A stretch of 22,142 nucleotides of DNA. It comes from a virus. Location of the stretch: IMG/VR virus record IMGVR_UViG_3300037847_001602, positions 1 to 22,142 of that record. One strand, given 5' to 3'. Positions 4,978 through 15,939 of this stretch are shown in pieces. Numbering within the stretch: the first letter of the stretch is position 1; every line of letters begins with the position of its first letter. Position numbers and translations under genes: made by a program. The notes below the pieces were generated by a model. It was not told the origin of the DNA and made no database searches. It saw only the letters and a list, made by a program, of their open reading frames with translations.

Positions 4978-5441
4978 TGGCTTTATCAGTTTTATTATAT
5001 AATGGAAAAACAGGGGGTGGAGACGAAAAAAGATTTGCTATAAAAGCAGATTCTTTTTCTGTTAACTATGTAAAAACTCCTGTGCAAATTCCTTTACCAA
5101 ATGGTGTTAGCCCACAAATTATGGACTTTGGTTTTTTACGACCATCAATAACTATTACAGGATTAGTAGATACAGATGATCCGAGTGAAACTGTTACTGG
5201 TCCTGACAAAAGTGGTACAAGTTATAGTGTGCCTACTAAAGAACAATTAGAAGACTTTGTTACTGGAGAGGTTTACGACATTTCTGCGTCTCCTTTAGAG
5301 GTTATGATTGCTGATGGTAGCACTGTTATTGCATCTTATGACATAGCTATACAACAAGCAAGGTTTGATTTAGCTCCCGGAACAGAAGATAGGCATTCAT
5401 TTAGTATTGTATGCGTGGCTAAAAAGAGGTCAGATTCGTAA
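4977..5441 (+). CDS. Small tail-tip / baseplate protein
   Basis: This 154-residue, beta-rich protein starts inside the stop of the tape-measure-like gene and ends inside the start of the hub gene (both TAATG), so the three are one coupled unit. The central string IMDFGFLRPSITITGLVD and the later SFSIVCVAKK fit a beta-barrel. Its place between tape measure and hub is that of distal tail proteins, which cap the tube and anchor the tip complex. I do not recognise a specific family and base the call on order and fold style. Confidence 0.45.
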   Translation: MALSVLLYNGKTGGGDEKRFAIKADSFSVNYVKTPVQIPLPNGVSPQIMDFGFLRPSITITGLVDTDDPSETVTGPDKSGTSYSVPTKEQLEDFVTGEVYDISASPLEVMIADGSTVIASYDIAIQQARFDLAPGTEDRHSFSIVCVAKKRSDS

Positions 5442-8400
5442 TGGCAGGAGATCCTAGAACATTTAAACAATCTAAAGTATATGCTTGGATACAAGTAGCC
5501 CAGTTAAATGATACATCAGATGATGGAGGAGGCGGGGCTGGAACTGGTATATCAAATTCTAGAACCAGTATAACTGTAGATGCTGCTGGGCTTACTCCCG
5601 GTAGTAGTCATCACATAGAAAACGGGATGGACTTGTTGATTGAAAGTGAACAAGTCACTGTAAGCGGTGTTGATGGTAATACTATTACAATAGATAGAGC
5701 TGAATATGGTACATCTGCTGCTGCTCATTTAGACAACACTCCAATTTTTGCATACAAAGAGTTAAAGGACGCTACAAGTGGAGCAAGTTTAGTGCAAAGT
5801 ATACTCATCAAAGATGATATGTACTACCCAAGAATGGCACAATTAGTTGTTTCAAACCCCCCAACAGGAGATAATTATTCTTTAGGGGTATTTGATGATG
5901 TATTAAAAAATAACACCCCAATAAAAATTGTAGATGGGGCTAATTATACAATTCATTTTACTGGAACAATTACAAGTTTTACCAAACAACACGGAATGCA
6001 AGCAGGAAATACTATTCAATTTACGGCAGAAGATGGTTTATACGAATTGTCTAGAAGTAAATTACAAGGGGCTGATAGAACCATAACACTAAAAGATAAT
6101 AACGGGGCTCAGACAAATGCAGATTTTTCTAGTGCAGCATTATCTAAAAAAACATCAGCTTATATTGAAAAATTAATTCAAAGATTTCAATTTAAAGGTA
6201 TCGCTGGATCAGAAAATAATTTAACAACAACTGAAACTTCTAGTGGTAGTTACACAAGATTTGAAACTTCAAAAGTAGATCAAAAAATGAATGCTCGAAG
6301 ACATCAAATTACTTTTGCTAGCACTGATTCAACAGTCTTAAAAGCTATACAAAGACTTGCCCTAAGAGATAGGATTACAGATACAGGGCATTTTTATGGA
6401 TACATATTTTACGCAGACCCAAATGTAACATCTCCTTCAAGTGCTCATAAACCAGCACAAATGTTTAATTATTTTAGAAGTAGTTTTATGCCGGGTACGA
6501 CTGATACAACTAAAGATACTGCTCCTTCAGGGGCTACTAACAGCGTAGGAAATTTAGATTTTAAATATCCTACATCATCTGCTATTACAGAAAACGGTAG
6601 AACTATATTAATGCAACCGGGAGCTTCATTTGATAAAATGGAAAGCGAAAGAGTTAATACTATAGTTGTACGTCTTAGAGATACTGAAACAGGTAAAATT
6701 GATGAAGTACAGTTTGAAGTATTTAATTATACAGAGGTAGTGCAAGCTAGCCAAGGTTTAACAACGGCATATACTAATAAAAAATTAATAGGTAAAATTG
6801 ATGATACCACAGGAGTTGAAGACCCACTTAGGCAAGAAGACGATGCGGCAACTGATTGGGATGCTAGATTAGTTTTAGATGGTGCAGGTAGTGACGAACC
6901 TCTAGTAGGTTATTTACAGTATTTAAGTTCAACTCCAGCTACAGGTAATGGCACTTATGCTGCTGATGGAACAGCTTTGATATCTAGTACCCGTACTGAT
7001 GATGCTGATGCTTTAGTATCTCCGGGAGATAGGCTATATTTAAATAAAGTTAGTGAGGGTAATTACTTAACACTAACAAGTGAAGAAGATCCTGATGCCA
7101 TAACTATTTATAGACCTCAACAGGTTCACGAACAAAGAAGAGCTGTTACTATGGATTTTGGTGTAGACGATAATCCTGATAATATAAGAACAGCTGTTGC
7201 AGCTAGATTTGCACAATTTAATACACCTAAGCAAAGAGGTAGATTTCAATGTAAATTTATGCCTTATTACTCTTTTGAGACTCAAGTAGGATCAAGTGAA
7301 ATAAGTACAGCTACGGTAGGTTCAAAAACTAAGATTACTTTTACAGATGATCACTCAAGTGGTACTACTAGTAGAGAAGGCGACACAATTACAACTAATG
7401 GTTCAATTGGTTTGAGGGCTGGGCATGTTATAGCTAAACTAACTGGACAAGATGGTACTGTTGATACCTTTGGATATTTAGAAAAAGTAACAGATACTAC
7501 TGCTGTGGCTATAATGAACTCTGGAAGTCTAACTACTAATGATTATATTAGATATTATGTGCCTCTAAGAGCTGGTCATATAATAGCAGCAGATGCAGCT
7601 CATTACGGTGTAAGCTCTGCTAATGGGTCAGGACAACAAATAGTTACTTCTATGACATATTATGAAAATGGTGGGCAGGCTTATACTGATATAGAAACAT
7701 TAGCTGTTCCTAGTGCAGCAACTCAAACTGTTATATCTGCAATAAAACCAGATTTTTTGTCAATTGATGATCAAAATGATGATGATAAAGATGGAGATAA
7801 AGAGGGTTTTGAATTTACGGTGCCCCATTTTACTGGGACATTTACTGCTGGTTCATCAGGCACCACTAGAGAAAATGTATCTCTTAGATACTCTGCGGGT
7901 AATTTATATATTGGAAGTGAAGTTTTTCACATTACAGCGGGCACCAGTGAAAATTCAGATGGGGTAGTAGATAATACAGGCGGTGCAGGTACAAATGACG
8001 GGGGATCTTTTCTCCCTGATGACACTGATGAGGATGGATTCCCTGATAGAATATATGTAATTTACTTTGAACCGGGACACAGTACAACACAATTTCAAAT
8101 TAAATCTCAAGCTACTTTTGAAGATAGGAATGGTGGAGATGGTTTGACAACAGGTGGAGATAGATTAATAAGCTCTAGGACTCGTATTAAATTAGGTATA
8201 GCTTATGCTAGTGTAATTCCTGAAGGAAAAGTTAGTTGGTTCTTTACTAATATGACTACTGGATTAGGGTCATCCGATGAAACAGATACCACTGTCCGAA
8301 CCGCACACTCTCCTGACTTAAAAATAGGAGGTGCTCAACTTACTGGAGTTGGTCCAGACAGCAATTTTTTTCCCCCAAAAACTAATACTCATTCATTAGG

Positions 8401-8776
8401 AATAAGTGGAAGTAAGATTTGGACAGCTTTATTTGCAACTAGTAGTAGTGTAACAACTTCTGATGGAAGAGACAAAAAAGACGTACAAGATATTCAAGAA
8501 GGTTTAGATTTTGTAAATGATTTAAGACCAGTAAAATATAAATGGAAAGAAGATGTTATAGATGACGTTCAAACCCACAGAGGTGTGATTGCTCAAGAAG
8601 TAATTGAAGTTTTAAAAAAATATAATATTACAGATTTAGATGATTTTGCTCCAATACATCAAAGCCCTAACGGAAAATTAGGGGCAAGATACGAACAATT
8701 TGTACCTATATTAATTAAAGCTATACAAGAATTGTCTAGTAAAGTAGATAAATTAGAAAATGAAGGCAAAGAATAA
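5441..8776 (+). CDS. Tail hub/fibre protein with C-terminal S74 intramolecular chaperone
   Basis: The 1111-residue protein starts with a short polar segment and a glycine-rich linker, then a beta module at about residues 42-105 (TVDAAGL...SGVDGNTITIDR...AAHLDNTPIF). A region at about 120-205 reads like baseplate hub proteins of the gp27/gp44 type (IHFTGTITSF, TIQFTAEDGLYELSR). A long beta-rich middle follows, with two aspartate-rich stretches: 776-789 and a thrombospondin type-3-like DTDEDGFPD around 861-869, a likely calcium loop. The last about 105 residues are a peptidase S74 intramolecular chaperone. S1007-D1008 with the S-D-x-x-R-x-K pattern is the self-cleavage site, and PVKYKW, GVIAQEV and a C-terminal helix complete it. 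This domain trimerises the fibre, then cuts itself off. Host recognition is the likely role. It overlaps the next gene by 17 bases. Confidence 0.75.
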   Translation: MAGDPRTFKQSKVYAWIQVAQLNDTSDDGGGGAGTGISNSRTSITVDAAGLTPGSSHHIENGMDLLIESEQVTVSGVDGNTITIDRAEYGTSAAAHLDNTPIFAYKELKDATSGASLVQSILIKDDMYYPRMAQLVVSNPPTGDNYSLGVFDDVLKNNTPIKIVDGANYTIHFTGTITSFTKQHGMQAGNTIQFTAEDGLYELSRSKLQGADRTITLKDNNGAQTNADFSSAALSKKTSAYIEKLIQRFQFKGIAGSENNLTTTETSSGSYTRFETSKVDQKMNARRHQITFASTDSTVLKAIQRLALRDRITDTGHFYGYIFYADPNVTSPSSAHKPAQMFNYFRSSFMPGTTDTTKDTAPSGATNSVGNLDFKYPTSSAITENGRTILMQPGASFDKMESERVNTIVVRLRDTETGKIDEVQFEVFNYTEVVQASQGLTTAYTNKKLIGKIDDTTGVEDPLRQEDDAATDWDARLVLDGAGSDEPLVGYLQYLSSTPATGNGTYAADGTALISSTRTDDADALVSPGDRLYLNKVSEGNYLTLTSEEDPDAITIYRPQQVHEQRRAVTMDFGVDDNPDNIRTAVAARFAQFNTPKQRGRFQCKFMPYYSFETQVGSSEISTATVGSKTKITFTDDHSSGTTSREGDTITTNGSIGLRAGHVIAKLTGQDGTVDTFGYLEKVTDTTAVAIMNSGSLTTNDYIRYYVPLRAGHIIAADAAHYGVSSANGSGQQIVTSMTYYENGGQAYTDIETLAVPSAATQTVISAIKPDFLSIDDQNDDDKDGDKEGFEFTVPHFTGTFTAGSSGTTRENVSLRYSAGNLYIGSEVFHITAGTSENSDGVVDNTGGAGTNDGGSFLPDDTDEDGFPDRIYVIYFEPGHSTTQFQIKSQATFEDRNGGDGLTTGGDRLISSRTRIKLGIAYASVIPEGKVSWFFTNMTTGLGSSDETDTTVRTAHSPDLKIGGAQLTGVGPDSNFFPPKTNTHSLGISGSKIWTALFATSSSVTTSDGRDKKDVQDIQEGLDFVNDLRPVKYKWKEDVIDDVQTHRGVIAQEVIEVLKKYNITDLDDFAPIHQSPNGKLGARYEQFVPILIKAIQELSSKVDKLENEGKE

Positions 8777-9176
8777 AGTTGTTAGACTTAGGAAACAAAA
8801 CCCTTTTATGTCTACAGCTGAAATCGCAAGAAAAGTTGGCATAACTAGGCAATACGCAAGAGAAGTTCTATTAAAAAACGACCTACAAACTAACCCACCT
8901 AAACCTAAACGTGTGGTATACTGTAAAGTATGTAGAGAAATAACCACAGATCGCGGTGGGATATGCAAAGGACAATGTTCTTTCAAGTGGAAATTTACTA
9001 AGCTAACTTGTTCTTGGTGTTTAGTGCCTTTTTATAGGACTAGAAAACGAATATTACAAGGATATAGATTAAAATTAAAAAATGTATACTGTACACAGAA
9101 GTGTTATCAGGACAAAAGGAAACATAACAGTGGATATAAACAACGATCTAATTTTGAAATGGGAACCGAAGATTAA
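8760..9176 (+). CDS. HTH and zinc-finger DNA-binding protein
   Basis: The 138 residues hold a helix-turn-helix at about 15-42 (TAEIARKVGITRQYAREVLL) and then two possible zinc sites: C55-x2-C58 with C69 and C73, and C84-x2-C87 with C111 and C115. The protein is highly basic, consistent with DNA or RNA binding. The ATG lies inside the end of the tail hub gene (17-base overlap). It is followed by, and overlaps, a sigma-like gene, so the pair may act as a transcription control unit. A homing-endonuclease-type DNA-binding protein is a possible alternative, but no nuclease motif is seen. Confidence 0.6.
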   Translation: MKAKNKVVRLRKQNPFMSTAEIARKVGITRQYAREVLLKNDLQTNPPKPKRVVYCKVCREITTDRGGICKGQCSFKWKFTKLTCSWCLVPFYRTRKRILQGYRLKLKNVYCTQKCYQDKRKHNSGYKQRSNFEMGTED

Positions 9177-9675
9177 TAAAATGGTTTCTAACATTTATAT
9201 ACAAGGTTATGATCGTGATGATTTAGCTCAAGAGTTACGTTTAATTGTATTAAAAGCTGCTAAATTATATAATCCTAATAGAAATGCAATCTTTCATACT
9301 TATTTACACACAGCTATGGCTAATAGATTAAAAACTTTATGGGTGCAAGCTAGTAAAAAAATACAGAGTTATAGTTTAGACATGCAGTCTGACTCAGATG
9401 ATGACAATACTTATAAACTTAGCGACTTCGTAAAACAGTTGGATGAAAATTTAGATGAAGTAGACTTTATAGATTGGATAGATTCTTTAAATTTAGATGA
9501 AGGTGAAAAACAATTCCTTACTAAAAAGTTACAAAACTATACTATGAAAGACATAGAGCAGTACTTAAAAAACATATCTGATACAAAAACTGTCAATGGG
9601 CAAGAAACTGTGGTAAACTATTCCATATACAAAGTAAAAAAGTCGCTTAGAAATAAGTTAAACGAAGAGAAATAA
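9130..9675 (+). CDS. RNA polymerase sigma-70-like factor
   Basis: I choose the GTG at 9130, not the upstream ATG at 9082. An AAAGGA site sits nine bases before the GTG, and the extra upstream residues are an out-of-frame reading of the zinc-finger gene. The resulting 181 residues have a region-2-like helical part (about 5-72; LILKWEPKINKMV, then DDLAQELRLIVLKAAKLYNPNR and FHTYLHTAMANRL), the pattern of sigma core-binding regions 2.1-2.2. An acidic linker follows (about 88-115), then a region-4-like part (about 118-178) ending in a basic helix. Phage factors of this kind often direct late or middle transcription by host RNA polymerase. Remote similarity only; an anti-sigma or replication accessory role is the alternative. 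Confidence 0.6.
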   Translation: MDINNDLILKWEPKINKMVSNIYIQGYDRDDLAQELRLIVLKAAKLYNPNRNAIFHTYLHTAMANRLKTLWVQASKKIQSYSLDMQSDSDDDNTYKLSDFVKQLDENLDEVDFIDWIDSLNLDEGEKQFLTKKLQNYTMKDIEQYLKNISDTKTVNGQETVVNYSIYKVKKSLRNKLNEEK

Positions 9676-11996: not shown

Positions 11997-12722
11997 ATGT
12001 CAGGAATCAGTATGATACAAAACAACATATCGTCTAAAGAAACTAGAGCTACACAAAACTCTGAAGCTAATGGTAAAGAGGTTTGGTTAAAAGATGGGGA
12101 CCAAGTGTTCATGAAGTCTATGGCTACAGGAGAAGAAGGCGATATACACATGGAAGAGTTCTATGTATATGAATTTCAACAGGGCGTAGACAAGAGTTGG
12201 ACTAGTGTATTAGTAGAGAATGGAGAACCTGTTTCTGCAGTTCCTAGTGAAGCTATGGTTTACGAAGACGGTAGACGAAAAGCCCCAAGACACAAGTTTG
12301 CACTTTGGGGATATGTAACTGAAATATTACACACAGAGCAGAGAGTTGATTCATGGGAAGAAATTACTAGCCCATCAGGATCAAAAATGTATAAAGAAAC
12401 AGTGAATGATTTTAAAGTTCTTACTCTATCTTTTGGAGCACAGAACAGCAATTGGAATCAATTCGTTGATATATATGAGGATAACGGGTCATTAGATAAG
12501 ACTGTTATGAGAGTAAGAAGAAGAGGTTCAAGTCTTGATACCACTTATACCATTACTTCTACGTCAGGAGCTTTAGAGCTACCTGAAGATAAACAAGCAG
12601 AGGTAAAGAACCTTACTCCAATAAAAGAGTATCTAAGTCAGAGATACGGTAACACGGAGTCCACAACTGATGATGTACCATCGGATGCTGTGGCTATTGA
12701 TGATGACGACTCATTATTCTAA
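11997..12722 (+). CDS. Single-stranded DNA-binding protein
   Basis: A strong GGAGGA site precedes the ATG. The 241-residue protein is a beta-rich, OB-fold-like body with an acidic C-terminal tail that ends in DDDDSLF, the tip type that recruits polymerase and helicase partners in gp2.5/gp32-like and bacterial SSB proteins. The C-terminal region is increasingly acidic, also usual. Its place between primase and DNA polymerase matches replication cassettes of many phages. No single motif names the family, so the call relies on the tail, size and order. A hairpin follows the stop and may limit read-through. Confidence 0.7.
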   Translation: MSGISMIQNNISSKETRATQNSEANGKEVWLKDGDQVFMKSMATGEEGDIHMEEFYVYEFQQGVDKSWTSVLVENGEPVSAVPSEAMVYEDGRRKAPRHKFALWGYVTEILHTEQRVDSWEEITSPSGSKMYKETVNDFKVLTLSFGAQNSNWNQFVDIYEDNGSLDKTVMRVRRRGSSLDTTYTITSTSGALELPEDKQAEVKNLTPIKEYLSQRYGNTESTTDDVPSDAVAIDDDDSLF

Positions 12723-12742
12723 ACTAACCTCCATAAATGCTT

Positions 12743-12774
12743 ACTCCTCGGATTCAAATGTCCTTCCGAGGAGT
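12743..12774 (+). terminator. Perfect 10-bp hairpin between ssb and polymerase
   Basis: ACTCCTCGGA (12743-12752) and TCCGAGGAGT (12765-12774) are perfect reverse complements around a 12-base loop. The stem is followed by only two or three T residues, so it is at best a weak intrinsic terminator or attenuator. Its 3' arm also contains GAGGAG, an SD-like sequence, so it may instead control translation of the polymerase. It lies 20 bases after the ssb stop and 15 before the polymerase ATG, in one of only two gaps above 60 bases between the larger genes. Confidence 0.55.
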
Positions 12775-12789
12775 TTGCACACCTTACCA

Positions 12790-14754
12790 ATGATAGTAAC
12801 ACCAGACACATTTACAGATACTATAAACTCATTACCTGATTCGCCTATGTGGATAATGGATGTGGAGACTAATGGCTTTGATCCATATAATATGAATCAG
12901 CTATGTGGTATTGGTTTAGCTGATCTTGATAGTGAACATGCGTATTACTTTCCTTTTAGGCATCAATCAGACGAACCTAATTTATCTCAAGATCAATTAA
13001 AACGGTTAGTTGAATTTATTAACAACACTTGTAAAACTGTTGTTGGGTATAATGTAAAGTTTGATGCTAAGTTTTTACACAACGAAGGTATAAACATAGA
13101 TGCGATGAAGCTATTAGATGTGCTTGTTATGGTTAGAATGACAGAGCCTACTACAATAAATAGGCTTAGTTTGACGGATACTTTGGTGCGAAGTTATGGA
13201 GAAAAGGCTGGAGCATATGATTTAGAAACTAAAAAAGTTTTAAAGAAAAATAAATGGTTTAGAGATTTTTCATTAGCACCCCCATCCATTTTAGGACCAT
13301 ACTGTATAGATGATGTTAAATGGACACGAAAACTATATAAAGATAGATTCAGAAAATTAGTTACTAGTAATCAAATAGAGCTGTTTCATTTTCAAACAAA
13401 GCTAACTAAAACTCTCTACATGATGGAGAGACGTGGTGTAGTTATAGACAACAAGTATGCCAAACAGGCTTACGATAAAACACTAACTAGAATAGAGGTT
13501 TTGAAGAATAGAATATATGAATTAGTGGGGCATGAGTTTAATATTAGTAGCACTAAACAACTAGGGGAAACATTTAATGCTATGGGTGTACATTCACCAC
13601 TACGCACTGCAAAAGGTGCAGAGGCGTGGAATGAAGAGGCTCTTGTAAGATTAAACTCACCACTAGCAGGATTAATAAGACAATATAGAGCATTAGAAAA
13701 GATAAGGTCTACATATATAGAACCTTATTTAGAACTGCCTGTGCTTCATACTAGTTTTAATAACTGGGGTACGGTAACAGGTAGACTATCATCGAGCACT
13801 CCTAACTTGCAGAATATACCTAGAGATACGGTTTATGTAGAGGACAGACAATTATCTGAATCTGATAAAGAAGATATCAGAGGTAGAGTAGCTGCGATAG
13901 TATCTAGCAAAGGTGGTAACGCTAATACTGAATTGACAGATGATGTTTTAGATACTTGGAGTTTTTTGGGTGGGGATAAGTTTGATCCTACTGATGCTAG
14001 ACAAATAGCCATAAGAAATTTATTCATACCTAGGCAAAACTATAAAATGATAGCGTATGATTATTCACAAATGGAAGTTAGGGTTTTCATGAGTTATGTT
14101 AACAATGAAGAAATGAATGAGTTGATGAAAAAGGATAATGTTGACTTTCACGGTGAGGCAGCAAAGATTGCTTTTAATGTAACAGAGGATGATTCACAGT
14201 TTAAGTTTTTTAGACAATTAGCTAAATCAATTACTTTTGGAGTTATATATGGTATTGGTAAAGATAAGCTAGCACTACAATTAAACACAACTCCAGATTT
14301 AGCAGCTGAATATAAGAATACATATCTAGAAAACATGAAGGGATCTAGAAAGTTTTTTAATTCTGTGATTAGGACAATTAAAACAGAACGACAAGTTAGA
14401 AATAAGTATGGTAGGGTTTACAGGGTGCCTAGTGAGTTTGGGTACAAAGGGGTTAACTATTTAATTCAGGGAACAAGTGCTGATATTATGAGTGAACGAA
14501 TGGTAGCTGTTGCTGATTATTTGAAAGATAAGCAAAGCAATTTATTACTGCAAGTACACGATGAGATTATATGTGAAATACATGAAGACGAGGTTGATGA
14601 TGTAGCTCCTAAGATTAGAGAGCTTATGGTGCAAAATAGTCTTGACATACCATTAGAAGTTGATATGGAAGTGTGTAATCCTTCATGGGCAGTGAAAAAA
14701 GACTTTGAAGATATGAATAAATTTAATTTAATAGAACATATAGACTGGGATTAA
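12790..14754 (+). CDS. polA: DNA polymerase, family A (PolA-like), with 3'-5' exonuclease
   Basis: From ATG 12790 the protein has 654 residues. The longer frame back to 12670 reads through the hairpin and the ssb 3' end, so I reject it. The 3'-5' exonuclease has D24-x-E26, N88/D92 and Y171/D174-175 patterns. The polymerase has motif A DYSQMEVR (D424), the O-helix RQLAKSITFGVIYG (R475, K479, F483, Y487) and motif C VHDE (D591). There is no 5' nuclease domain, as in T7-type polymerases. Phenylalanine at F483, the equivalent of E. coli F762, is the type studied as a phage lifestyle marker. An extra segment of about 60 residues (about 346-405) lies between NLQNIPR and the IRNLFIP strand. No good SD site is close to this start; the GAGGAG 16 bases upstream is in the hairpin. 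Confidence 0.93.
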   Translation: MIVTPDTFTDTINSLPDSPMWIMDVETNGFDPYNMNQLCGIGLADLDSEHAYYFPFRHQSDEPNLSQDQLKRLVEFINNTCKTVVGYNVKFDAKFLHNEGINIDAMKLLDVLVMVRMTEPTTINRLSLTDTLVRSYGEKAGAYDLETKKVLKKNKWFRDFSLAPPSILGPYCIDDVKWTRKLYKDRFRKLVTSNQIELFHFQTKLTKTLYMMERRGVVIDNKYAKQAYDKTLTRIEVLKNRIYELVGHEFNISSTKQLGETFNAMGVHSPLRTAKGAEAWNEEALVRLNSPLAGLIRQYRALEKIRSTYIEPYLELPVLHTSFNNWGTVTGRLSSSTPNLQNIPRDTVYVEDRQLSESDKEDIRGRVAAIVSSKGGNANTELTDDVLDTWSFLGGDKFDPTDARQIAIRNLFIPRQNYKMIAYDYSQMEVRVFMSYVNNEEMNELMKKDNVDFHGEAAKIAFNVTEDDSQFKFFRQLAKSITFGVIYGIGKDKLALQLNTTPDLAAEYKNTYLENMKGSRKFFNSVIRTIKTERQVRNKYGRVYRVPSEFGYKGVNYLIQGTSADIMSERMVAVADYLKDKQSNLLLQVHDEIICEIHEDEVDDVAPKIRELMVQNSLDIPLEVDMEVCNPSWAVKKDFEDMNKFNLIEHIDWD

Positions 14755-14755
14755 C

Positions 14756-14938
14756 ATGATAGTAAAATTAAAGAAAAACGAAACTTTTGAAAAATTACTT
14801 AGAAGATTTAAAAAGAAACTGCAAAAAGATGATTTACTTAAAACATATAGAGACAAACAAGAGTTTGTACCTAAAAGTGTAAGAAGACAATATCAAAAAG
14901 CAAATAAATTAAGAAAGAGTAGGGAACAGAATGTCTAG
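14756..14938 (+). CDS. rpsU: Ribosomal protein bS21 homologue
   Basis: The 60-residue, very basic protein matches bS21 along its length: an N-terminal beta strand (IVKLKKNETFE), a helix LLRRFKKKLQKD, then LLKTYRDKQEFVPKSVRRQ, which lines up with the family pattern RRFKK...E/L...R...F..PS..R. bS21 binds the small ribosomal subunit near the anti-Shine-Dalgarno end of 16S rRNA and affects initiation. Phage-borne copies are known from environmental phages and are thought to replace the host protein. The gene begins one base after the polymerase stop and has no strong SD of its own, so it is likely coupled to it. The C-terminus is overlapped by eight bases with the next gene. The short length is near the family norm (about 55-70). 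Confidence 0.88.
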   Translation: MIVKLKKNETFEKLLRRFKKKLQKDDLLKTYRDKQEFVPKSVRRQYQKANKLRKSREQNV

Positions 14939-15302
14939 TAAAGATGTATTTCATTGTGAAGAAAATGATGATGAAGTTATATATTATGATGGACTCAAAG
15001 AAGCATTTATAGGTTTAGGGCATCAACAGTTTAAAGGACCCTACGCTATATACGATAGAGAAAAAGCTATTGAAATAATTGCAAGAGACTTTTATAAAGA
15101 AAAAAAGAAAGAATATACTTTTGATGACATGGATGCAGAAACACGACTAAATGTTGTACAAGCAGTAGGGGATGAAGCGTATGAAGAAGCAATGGAATAC
15201 TTTGAATACAACACTGAAGGTGCGTGGTTAGGAGATAGAACTCCCATATTCGTAATCATGAAAGACTTATTAACACCAATAGAACCTATAGAGGAGGACT
15301 AA
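14931..15302 (+). CDS. Conserved phage protein of unknown function (YDG..EAFIGLG type)
   Basis: This acidic 123-residue protein has YYDGLKEAFIGLG near the start, YAIYDREKAIEIIARD in the middle and EAMEYFEYNTEGAWLGDRTPIF near the end. I recognise this string as a widespread small protein family in phages and prophages, with no assigned function that I can name. There is no membrane segment or catalytic motif. It overlaps bS21 by eight bases and ends one base before DUF3310, so it is co-expressed with the accessory block. Confidence 0.7.
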   Translation: MSSKDVFHCEENDDEVIYYDGLKEAFIGLGHQQFKGPYAIYDREKAIEIIARDFYKEKKKEYTFDDMDAETRLNVVQAVGDEAYEEAMEYFEYNTEGAWLGDRTPIFVIMKDLLTPIEPIEED

Positions 15303-15725
15303 ATGTCAGCAGGATGGAAAAACCCAAATGCCCCTTATGATTTTACACAAGCAATGTGGAATGACTTCAATACAAATTATGCTCATTTATCATGGGAAGA
15401 ATATATGCAGATGACAAAGTGGGGTATAAAAGAGATAGTAGAAAAAACACCAGATAAACCTAAAGAAGAAAATAAAAAGTATAGTTTTACTGAGTCATAT
15501 AATAAATCTGTAAAAGAAACTACTGACCCTGTACACTATCACTTTGATATAGAACCTTTTGATTACATACATGACAATCAGATGGGTTTTGCAGAGGGAA
15601 ATGTGGTAAAATATATAACAAGGTGGAGATATAAAGAAAATGGTATAGAAGACCTATACAAAGCAAAGCAGTATATAGATATGCTGATCGCAAAGGAGAT
15701 AACAGATGGCGAAAGTCGGACTTAA
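15303..15725 (+). CDS. DUF3310 domain protein
   Basis: A GAGGAGG site precedes the ATG. The N-terminal about 70 residues are variable. Residues about 75-132 give the DUF3310 pattern: DPVHYHFDIEPFDYI, then GNVVKYITRWRYK and GIEDLYKAKQYIDMLI. The domain is common in phages and has been called nucleotide kinase-like in some annotations, without solid proof. No P-loop is seen. Its neighbours (MazG-like, bS21) suggest a nucleotide or host take-over role. Confidence 0.82.
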   Translation: MSAGWKNPNAPYDFTQAMWNDFNTNYAHLSWEEYMQMTKWGIKEIVEKTPDKPKEENKKYSFTESYNKSVKETTDPVHYHFDIEPFDYIHDNQMGFAEGNVVKYITRWRYKENGIEDLYKAKQYIDMLIAKEITDGESRT

Positions 15726-15939
15726 ATTAGGATTTACATTTAGAGTAGGTCCACTAGATACAAATCAGTATGCAAGAATGGACATGGAGATTCATGACAT
15801 TGATACTGAACTACCAATAGAAGAACAATTAGACGAAGCAGGATTAACTTTAGATAAAGCCTATAAAGCGGTGCATGATAAAGTAGACGGTGAAATTAGG
15901 AACATCCTAAAGAAGGGTAAAAAGAAGGATGGAGATTGA
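15706..15939 (+). CDS. Small conserved phage protein, unknown function
   Basis: The 77 residues start with a beta-type segment (GLKLGFTFRVG, then ARMDMEIHDIDTELPIEEQL) and finish with a lysine-rich tail. A GGAG site precedes the ATG, and it overlaps DUF3310 by 20 bases. It resembles small phage proteins that carry a conserved acidic DIDTELPIEEQL string, which I cannot link to a function. There is no membrane segment or cysteine pair. Confidence 0.6.
   Translation: MAKVGLKLGFTFRVGPLDTNQYARMDMEIHDIDTELPIEEQLDEAGLTLDKAYKAVHDKVDGEIRNILKKGKKKDGD

Follow-up and report, generated by a model that had tools for sequence, protein, structure and literature searches.

Homologues of the ribosomal protein bS21 are already established as phage proteins. 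In 2019, 1,310 phage genomes and large contigs with a bS21 gene were counted, and viral ribosomal proteins showed an average pN/pS of 0.10 (PMC6375957). The bS21 of the Pelagibacter phage HTVC008M is closest to the copy of its SAR11 host and was incorporated into E. coli 70S ribosomes (PMC6375957). On the ribosome, bS21 assembles late, is loosely bound and can be exchanged (PMC9578407). In Flavobacterium, the bS21 content alters which mRNAs are initiated (PMC9976891), and in Bacteroidia the anti-SD is hidden by bS21 (PMC9976891, PMC9723584). For Bacteroidetes, the group in which the anti-SD is hidden, published work places the phage bS21 gene with the late virion genes. A replication-gene context (exonuclease, endonuclease, helicase) is also known for some published bS21 phages (PMC9723584).

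The window analyzed here, which denotes the whole stretch of 22,142 bases of a virus record, adds a further case, real and conserved. On its plus strand, an rpsU homologue at 14756-14938 (60 codons plus stop; MIVKLKKNETFEKLLRRFKKKLQKDDLLKTYRDKQEFVPKSVRRQYQKANKLRKSREQNV) encodes a protein with a net charge of +14, directly behind the gene of a family A DNA polymerase (polA).

The bS21 gene and its operon

Judged by sequence and predicted fold, the protein encoded at 14756-14938 is a bS21. Pfam S21 (PF01165) matched residues 3-55 with 37.7 bits (1.7e-9; curated cut-off 27) and TIGR00030 (NCBIfam) matched residues 2-56 of 60 with 42.9 bits (3.2e-11; curated cut-off 28.95). PHROG 21469, 'ribosomal protein S21', matched at 4.6e-6, so the original prediction of a basic 60-residue protein that is bS21 over its whole length holds. 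A phmmer search led to solved bS21 chains. The designed TPR proteins among the PDB profile matches were discarded as chance matches summed over repeats. The AlphaFold2 model, computed from a 26-row alignment, has a pLDDT of 84.8 and predicted helices at residues 11-24, 27-35 and 40-59. With this model, the top 13 Foldseek matches were all bacterial bS21 chains (probability 0.89-1.00, TM about 0.6; E-values of 0.01-0.24, weak because the chain is short), and structure prediction thus returned the expected bS21 fold.

Relatives are common among uncultivated viruses. A first scan of IMG/VR gave 51 relatives, nearly all full length and 63-100% identical, and a profile scan gave more than 80 bS21 loci. 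The final set holds 91 full-length loci, with some contigs represented by more than one overlapping piece, and comprises 44 distinct proteins of 58-64 aa. Over 688 pairs of phage bS21, the median pairwise dN/dS was about 0.18; the gene is therefore real and under purifying selection. A DNA search against annotated phages gave no match to the window, and tblastn with the window bS21 against 50,697 phage records (INPHARED, E 0.1) gave none either. The bS21 of a relative found only weak matches there, several of them in records resembling bacterial sequence.

In the second half of the window, replication and packaging genes form an operon on one strand. It encodes a sigma-70 region-2 protein, a DnaB helicase, a primase, an SSB-like protein, DNA polymerase A, bS21, an acidic protein and a DUF3310 protein, followed by a RecA/UvsX recombinase, two nucleases, a RuvC-like resolvase, a TerS-like protein and TerL. 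The polymerase, with a 3'-5' exonuclease domain, occupies 12670-14754 on the plus strand as the longest ORF (PF00476, 3.8e-79; PF01612, 3.2e-8), and its true start probably lies further in, at about 12790, as had been noted earlier. Behind bS21 on the same strand, the conserved acidic protein (14931-15302, net charge -18, PHROG 13182) shares 8 nt with the end of the bS21 gene, and the DUF3310 protein follows at 15303-15725 (PF11753, 3e-12; 'nucleotide kinase'-type in PHROG). The S21 gene thus lies inside a virus genome and is no contamination, with polA, primase, helicase, RecA, RuvC and TerL around it and the same place in 91 viral loci. Of the 'replication/accessory block' proposed earlier, the replication part stands; the gene sits in a replication operon and not in a moron-like accessory patch.

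Two other genes of the window deserve mention. The sigma-70 region-2 gene (9082-9675, plus strand; PF04542, 3.7e-8; PHROG 351 sigma factor), a possible regulator of phage genes, adjoins the helicase gene on its upstream side. Read as the longest ORF, it would begin about 95 nt inside the preceding ORF, and its true start probably lies further downstream. Positions 5441-8776 encode a structural protein of 1111 aa with a C-terminal intramolecular chaperone (Peptidase_S74) domain. In most loci, relatives of this protein reach only 25-41% identity while neighboring genes mostly stand at 60-90%, as expected of a host-recognition protein.

The spacing between polA and bS21 is tight. In the window, the polA stop TAA (14752-14754) is followed by a single C and the bS21 ATG at 14756, which bears out the one-base distance first described. 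In all 91 full-length loci the distance between the stop of the upstream ORF and the start of bS21 is between -4 and +1 nt, with TAATG, ATGA or stop-N-ATG junctions, and in nearly all of them this ORF is polA. The exceptions carry an extra ORF between the two genes, of about 184 codons in L032 (7447-7998), L033, L055 and L056 (also in L085 and L091, which come from the same contigs as L033 and L032) and of about 100 codons in L053 (4004-4303); L140 has an extra ORF there too. Where the contig reaches that far, the extra ORFs end with a duplicated polA C-terminal tail (EHIDW-like), and they stop beside bS21 at the same spacing as polA elsewhere. Since the upstream stop always lies at the bS21 start, insert loci included, coupled translation is the likely mode of expression, and bS21 is therefore predicted to be made together with the polymerase. 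By their spacing, polA and bS21 of the window are probably translationally coupled. Promoter-like sites in the region were no more frequent than in shuffles (27 against 35 expected), so no promoter of its own is claimed for bS21.

The inserted ORF of about 184 aa carries a D...LEVKSK pattern and is perhaps, by eye, a PD-(D/E)XK-like nuclease; it had no Pfam match and a weak PHROG match to a family of unknown function. In L056 (7436-7999; contig shared with L145), it consists of the first 20-odd bS21 residues fused to the nuclease-like protein, with a complete bS21 behind it, which may reflect gene conversion or an assembly chimera. The C-terminal tail of polA itself (14737-14754 in the window), IDW with one or two further residues, is conserved whether or not a phage carries bS21, is absent in one clade and may serve the polymerase as a protein-docking motif. 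The conserved tail CATATAGAYTGG was considered as a bS21 signal and rejected, the same ATAGATTGG tail being present in phages without bS21.

Inheritance, SD use and host lead

On a polA tree of 72 rows (58 with and 14 without bS21), the bS21 label needs only two changes, be they gains or losses, against a mean of 13 after shuffling. Distances of bS21 and polA are correlated (Spearman 0.62, reached by 0 of 500 permutations). The polymerase and bS21 have been inherited together over the long term, and throughout the phage lineage bS21 has long been kept in the DNA-replication operon and not among the virion genes. The two downstream genes follow the same distribution. The acidic protein is present in 26 of 27 bS21-bearing loci and the DUF3310 protein in all 27, and neither occurs in the 13 sister loci without bS21. 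In these outgroups, bS21, the acidic protein and the DUF3310 protein are absent together, and polA is followed, directly or past other small genes, by a homologue of 15706-15939. No S21 match was found in the whole contigs of 16 relatives without bS21, which may be fragments. Sister phages lacking only the bS21 block offer a natural comparison of genomes with and without it.

This comparison was applied to SD use, a strong SD being defined as an aSD pairing of -6 kcal/mol or better. As anticipated, strong-SD and SD-less genes are mixed in the phage: 55% of the 29 starts in the window reach this value, against 11% of other ATGs. Among orthologous starts, 58% of 301 in bS21-bearing phages and 63% of 122 in phages without bS21 reach it (backgrounds 11% and 14%); the Mann-Whitney p value of 0.22 is only indicative, as the rows are related and the positions of the starts come from alignment rather than from the SD. 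Shared genes are thus alike, and the idea that SD strength marks the genes favored by the phage bS21 found no support in this test. Of the eight SD-less genes in the window, seven either overlap the upstream stop or begin no more than 4 nt from it. Ordinary translational coupling can therefore explain them, weakly so as many SD-bearing genes are equally close.

As for the host, the phage bS21 profile matched 350 of 400 Chloroflexota genomes, at best with 64 bits, and PDB bS21 chains with at most 35 bits. The closest Chloroflexota copies share ESFE.LL.RF and the KLRKS tail with the phage copies. Chromosomal Chloroflexota bS21 (for example L154, where rpsU is followed by a YqeY-like gene, and L156) are up to 57% identical to some phage copy and 46% to the window copy. 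Most phage copies differ from them by G26 to D, E30 to T, EKPS/EPPS to xPKS and K/R45 to Q. All phage copies have PKS at 39-41, and their genes stand behind polA. The closest bacterial bS21 among those compared is tentatively that of Chloroflexota. This is a lead only, because a protein of 55 residues carries little signal and the comparison was limited to the 400 Chloroflexota genomes and PDB chains. The suggestion that the copy could point to the host is thus upheld in part: a copy of bacterial type points to a bacterial host, with Chloroflexota-like as best match, but the lead is weak. Of two scans of genome contigs, the first gave no match and the second one Chloroflexota MAG. No co-binned polA of the phage lineage was found in the 400 Chloroflexota genomes at E 1e-60, in a search that had no positive control and therefore carries no weight.

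Proposed role

A working phage bS21, made from the replication operon through translation coupled to the DNA polymerase, would be present during phage genome copying, a timing suggested by its coupling to polA. From published phage and bacterial bS21, we infer that it would displace the loosely held host bS21 on the 30S subunit, beside the 3' end of 16S rRNA. There, it could tune initiation toward phage messages, or keep the 30S competent when host bS21 is short; these benefits to the phage are conjectural. We regard such a replacement of host bS21 as the probable role, with reasonable but far from full confidence. Some points weigh against it. Poor translation by ribosomes with HTVC008M bS21 (below) raises the possibility of a poison. 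Being coupled to polA, bS21 may be made in moderate amounts only, possibly not enough for the refitting of many ribosomes, and no SD-strength signature accompanies bS21.

Its main rivals would be host shut-off and backup supply. In the former, the phage bS21 enters host 30S subunits and impairs the initiation of host messages, polycistronic coupled phage messages being less affected; the protein would be an inhibitor and no enhancer. Ribosomes with incorporated HTVC008M bS21 gave only about 5% of normal GFP in vitro (PMC6375957), so a phage bS21 might poison translation instead of redirecting it. Many genes of the window are coupled, and the residues common in Chloroflexota are replaced in most phage copies at the sites listed above. 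Nevertheless, the 5% may only mean that a protein from a Pelagibacter phage fits E. coli ribosomes badly, and the same ribosomes serve phage translation. We hold shut-off to be unlikely. Alternatively, host bS21 could become limiting in infection, and the phage copy would keep new 30S subunits active without any choice of messages. The equal SD usage of shared genes in phages with and without bS21 fits such a supply, and the strong purifying selection would suit an ordinary bS21 function. However, P39-K40-S41 and Q45, invariant across the phages, differ from most bacterial copies examined, which suggests a specialized role and makes a mere supply somewhat more doubtful still.

Incorporation into the 30S with bias or support for phage translation, argued by analogy, is thus the most likely reading. 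A more elaborate version, in which the three-gene block (bS21, acidic partner, DUF3310) coupled to polA in phages of Chloroflexota-like hosts would form a replication-stage bS21 exchange system, the acidic partner helping to strip or load bS21 and ribosomes being refitted as replication starts, is speculative and in our view improbable. Least credible of all is an extra-ribosomal role of an RNA-binding bS21 derivative, acting with the acidic neighbor or on phage RNA: the two proteins of opposite charge are adjacent and co-occur, and bS21 is described as a component of the OLE ribonucleoprotein in Halalkalibacterium (PMC12054373), but the whole S21 profile is kept, basic residues included, and DUF3310 co-occurs equally well, so that co-occurrence may only mean gain or loss of the block.

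Comparison with known systems

Like HTVC008M, the lineage has a complete S21-family phage protein under purifying selection (pN/pS 0.10 there, dN/dS about 0.18 here). The closest bacterial copy is that of the SAR11 host in HTVC008M and, among those examined, that of Chloroflexota here. Cultivated bS21 phages exceeded 130 kb in that work; the present lineage is known from contigs, the longest with bS21 being 82 kb.

The bS21 phages of freshwater Bacteroidetes (PMC9723584) share three features with the lineage: bS21 is kept across several related phage clades, a conserved neighbor of unknown function co-occurs with it, and the first helix and loop diverge from bacterial copies. In those phages, however, bS21 lies on the opposite strand among the TerL, portal, protease and MCP genes and is expressed late, whereas here it is a gene of the replication operon, read from the same strand as polA and immediately following it. 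They have an aromatic residue at position 54; the present lineage has no conserved aromatic after F37. Positions 47-58, searched for an equivalent of Tyr54, the residue that sequesters the anti-SD (its matching position here being approximate), hold no aromatic in 43 distinct proteins, and Y at position 46 occurs only in the window copy. Moreover, the Bacteroidetes type belongs to hosts without SD-led initiation, whereas the present phage uses SD sites (55% against a background of 11%). Without a conserved C-terminal aromatic and with SD sites in use, the anti-SD-hiding scheme of Bacteroidia does not fit.

As far as the literature consulted shows, there is no earlier description of the fixed coupling to polA, of the three-gene block or of a Chloroflexota-like setting with SD use, although some of the contigs may be part of published sets. 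Since bS21 is kept in the replication operon of SD-using phages, sequestration of the anti-SD, the scheme known from Bacteroidetes, is unlikely to be the general reason why phages carry bS21.
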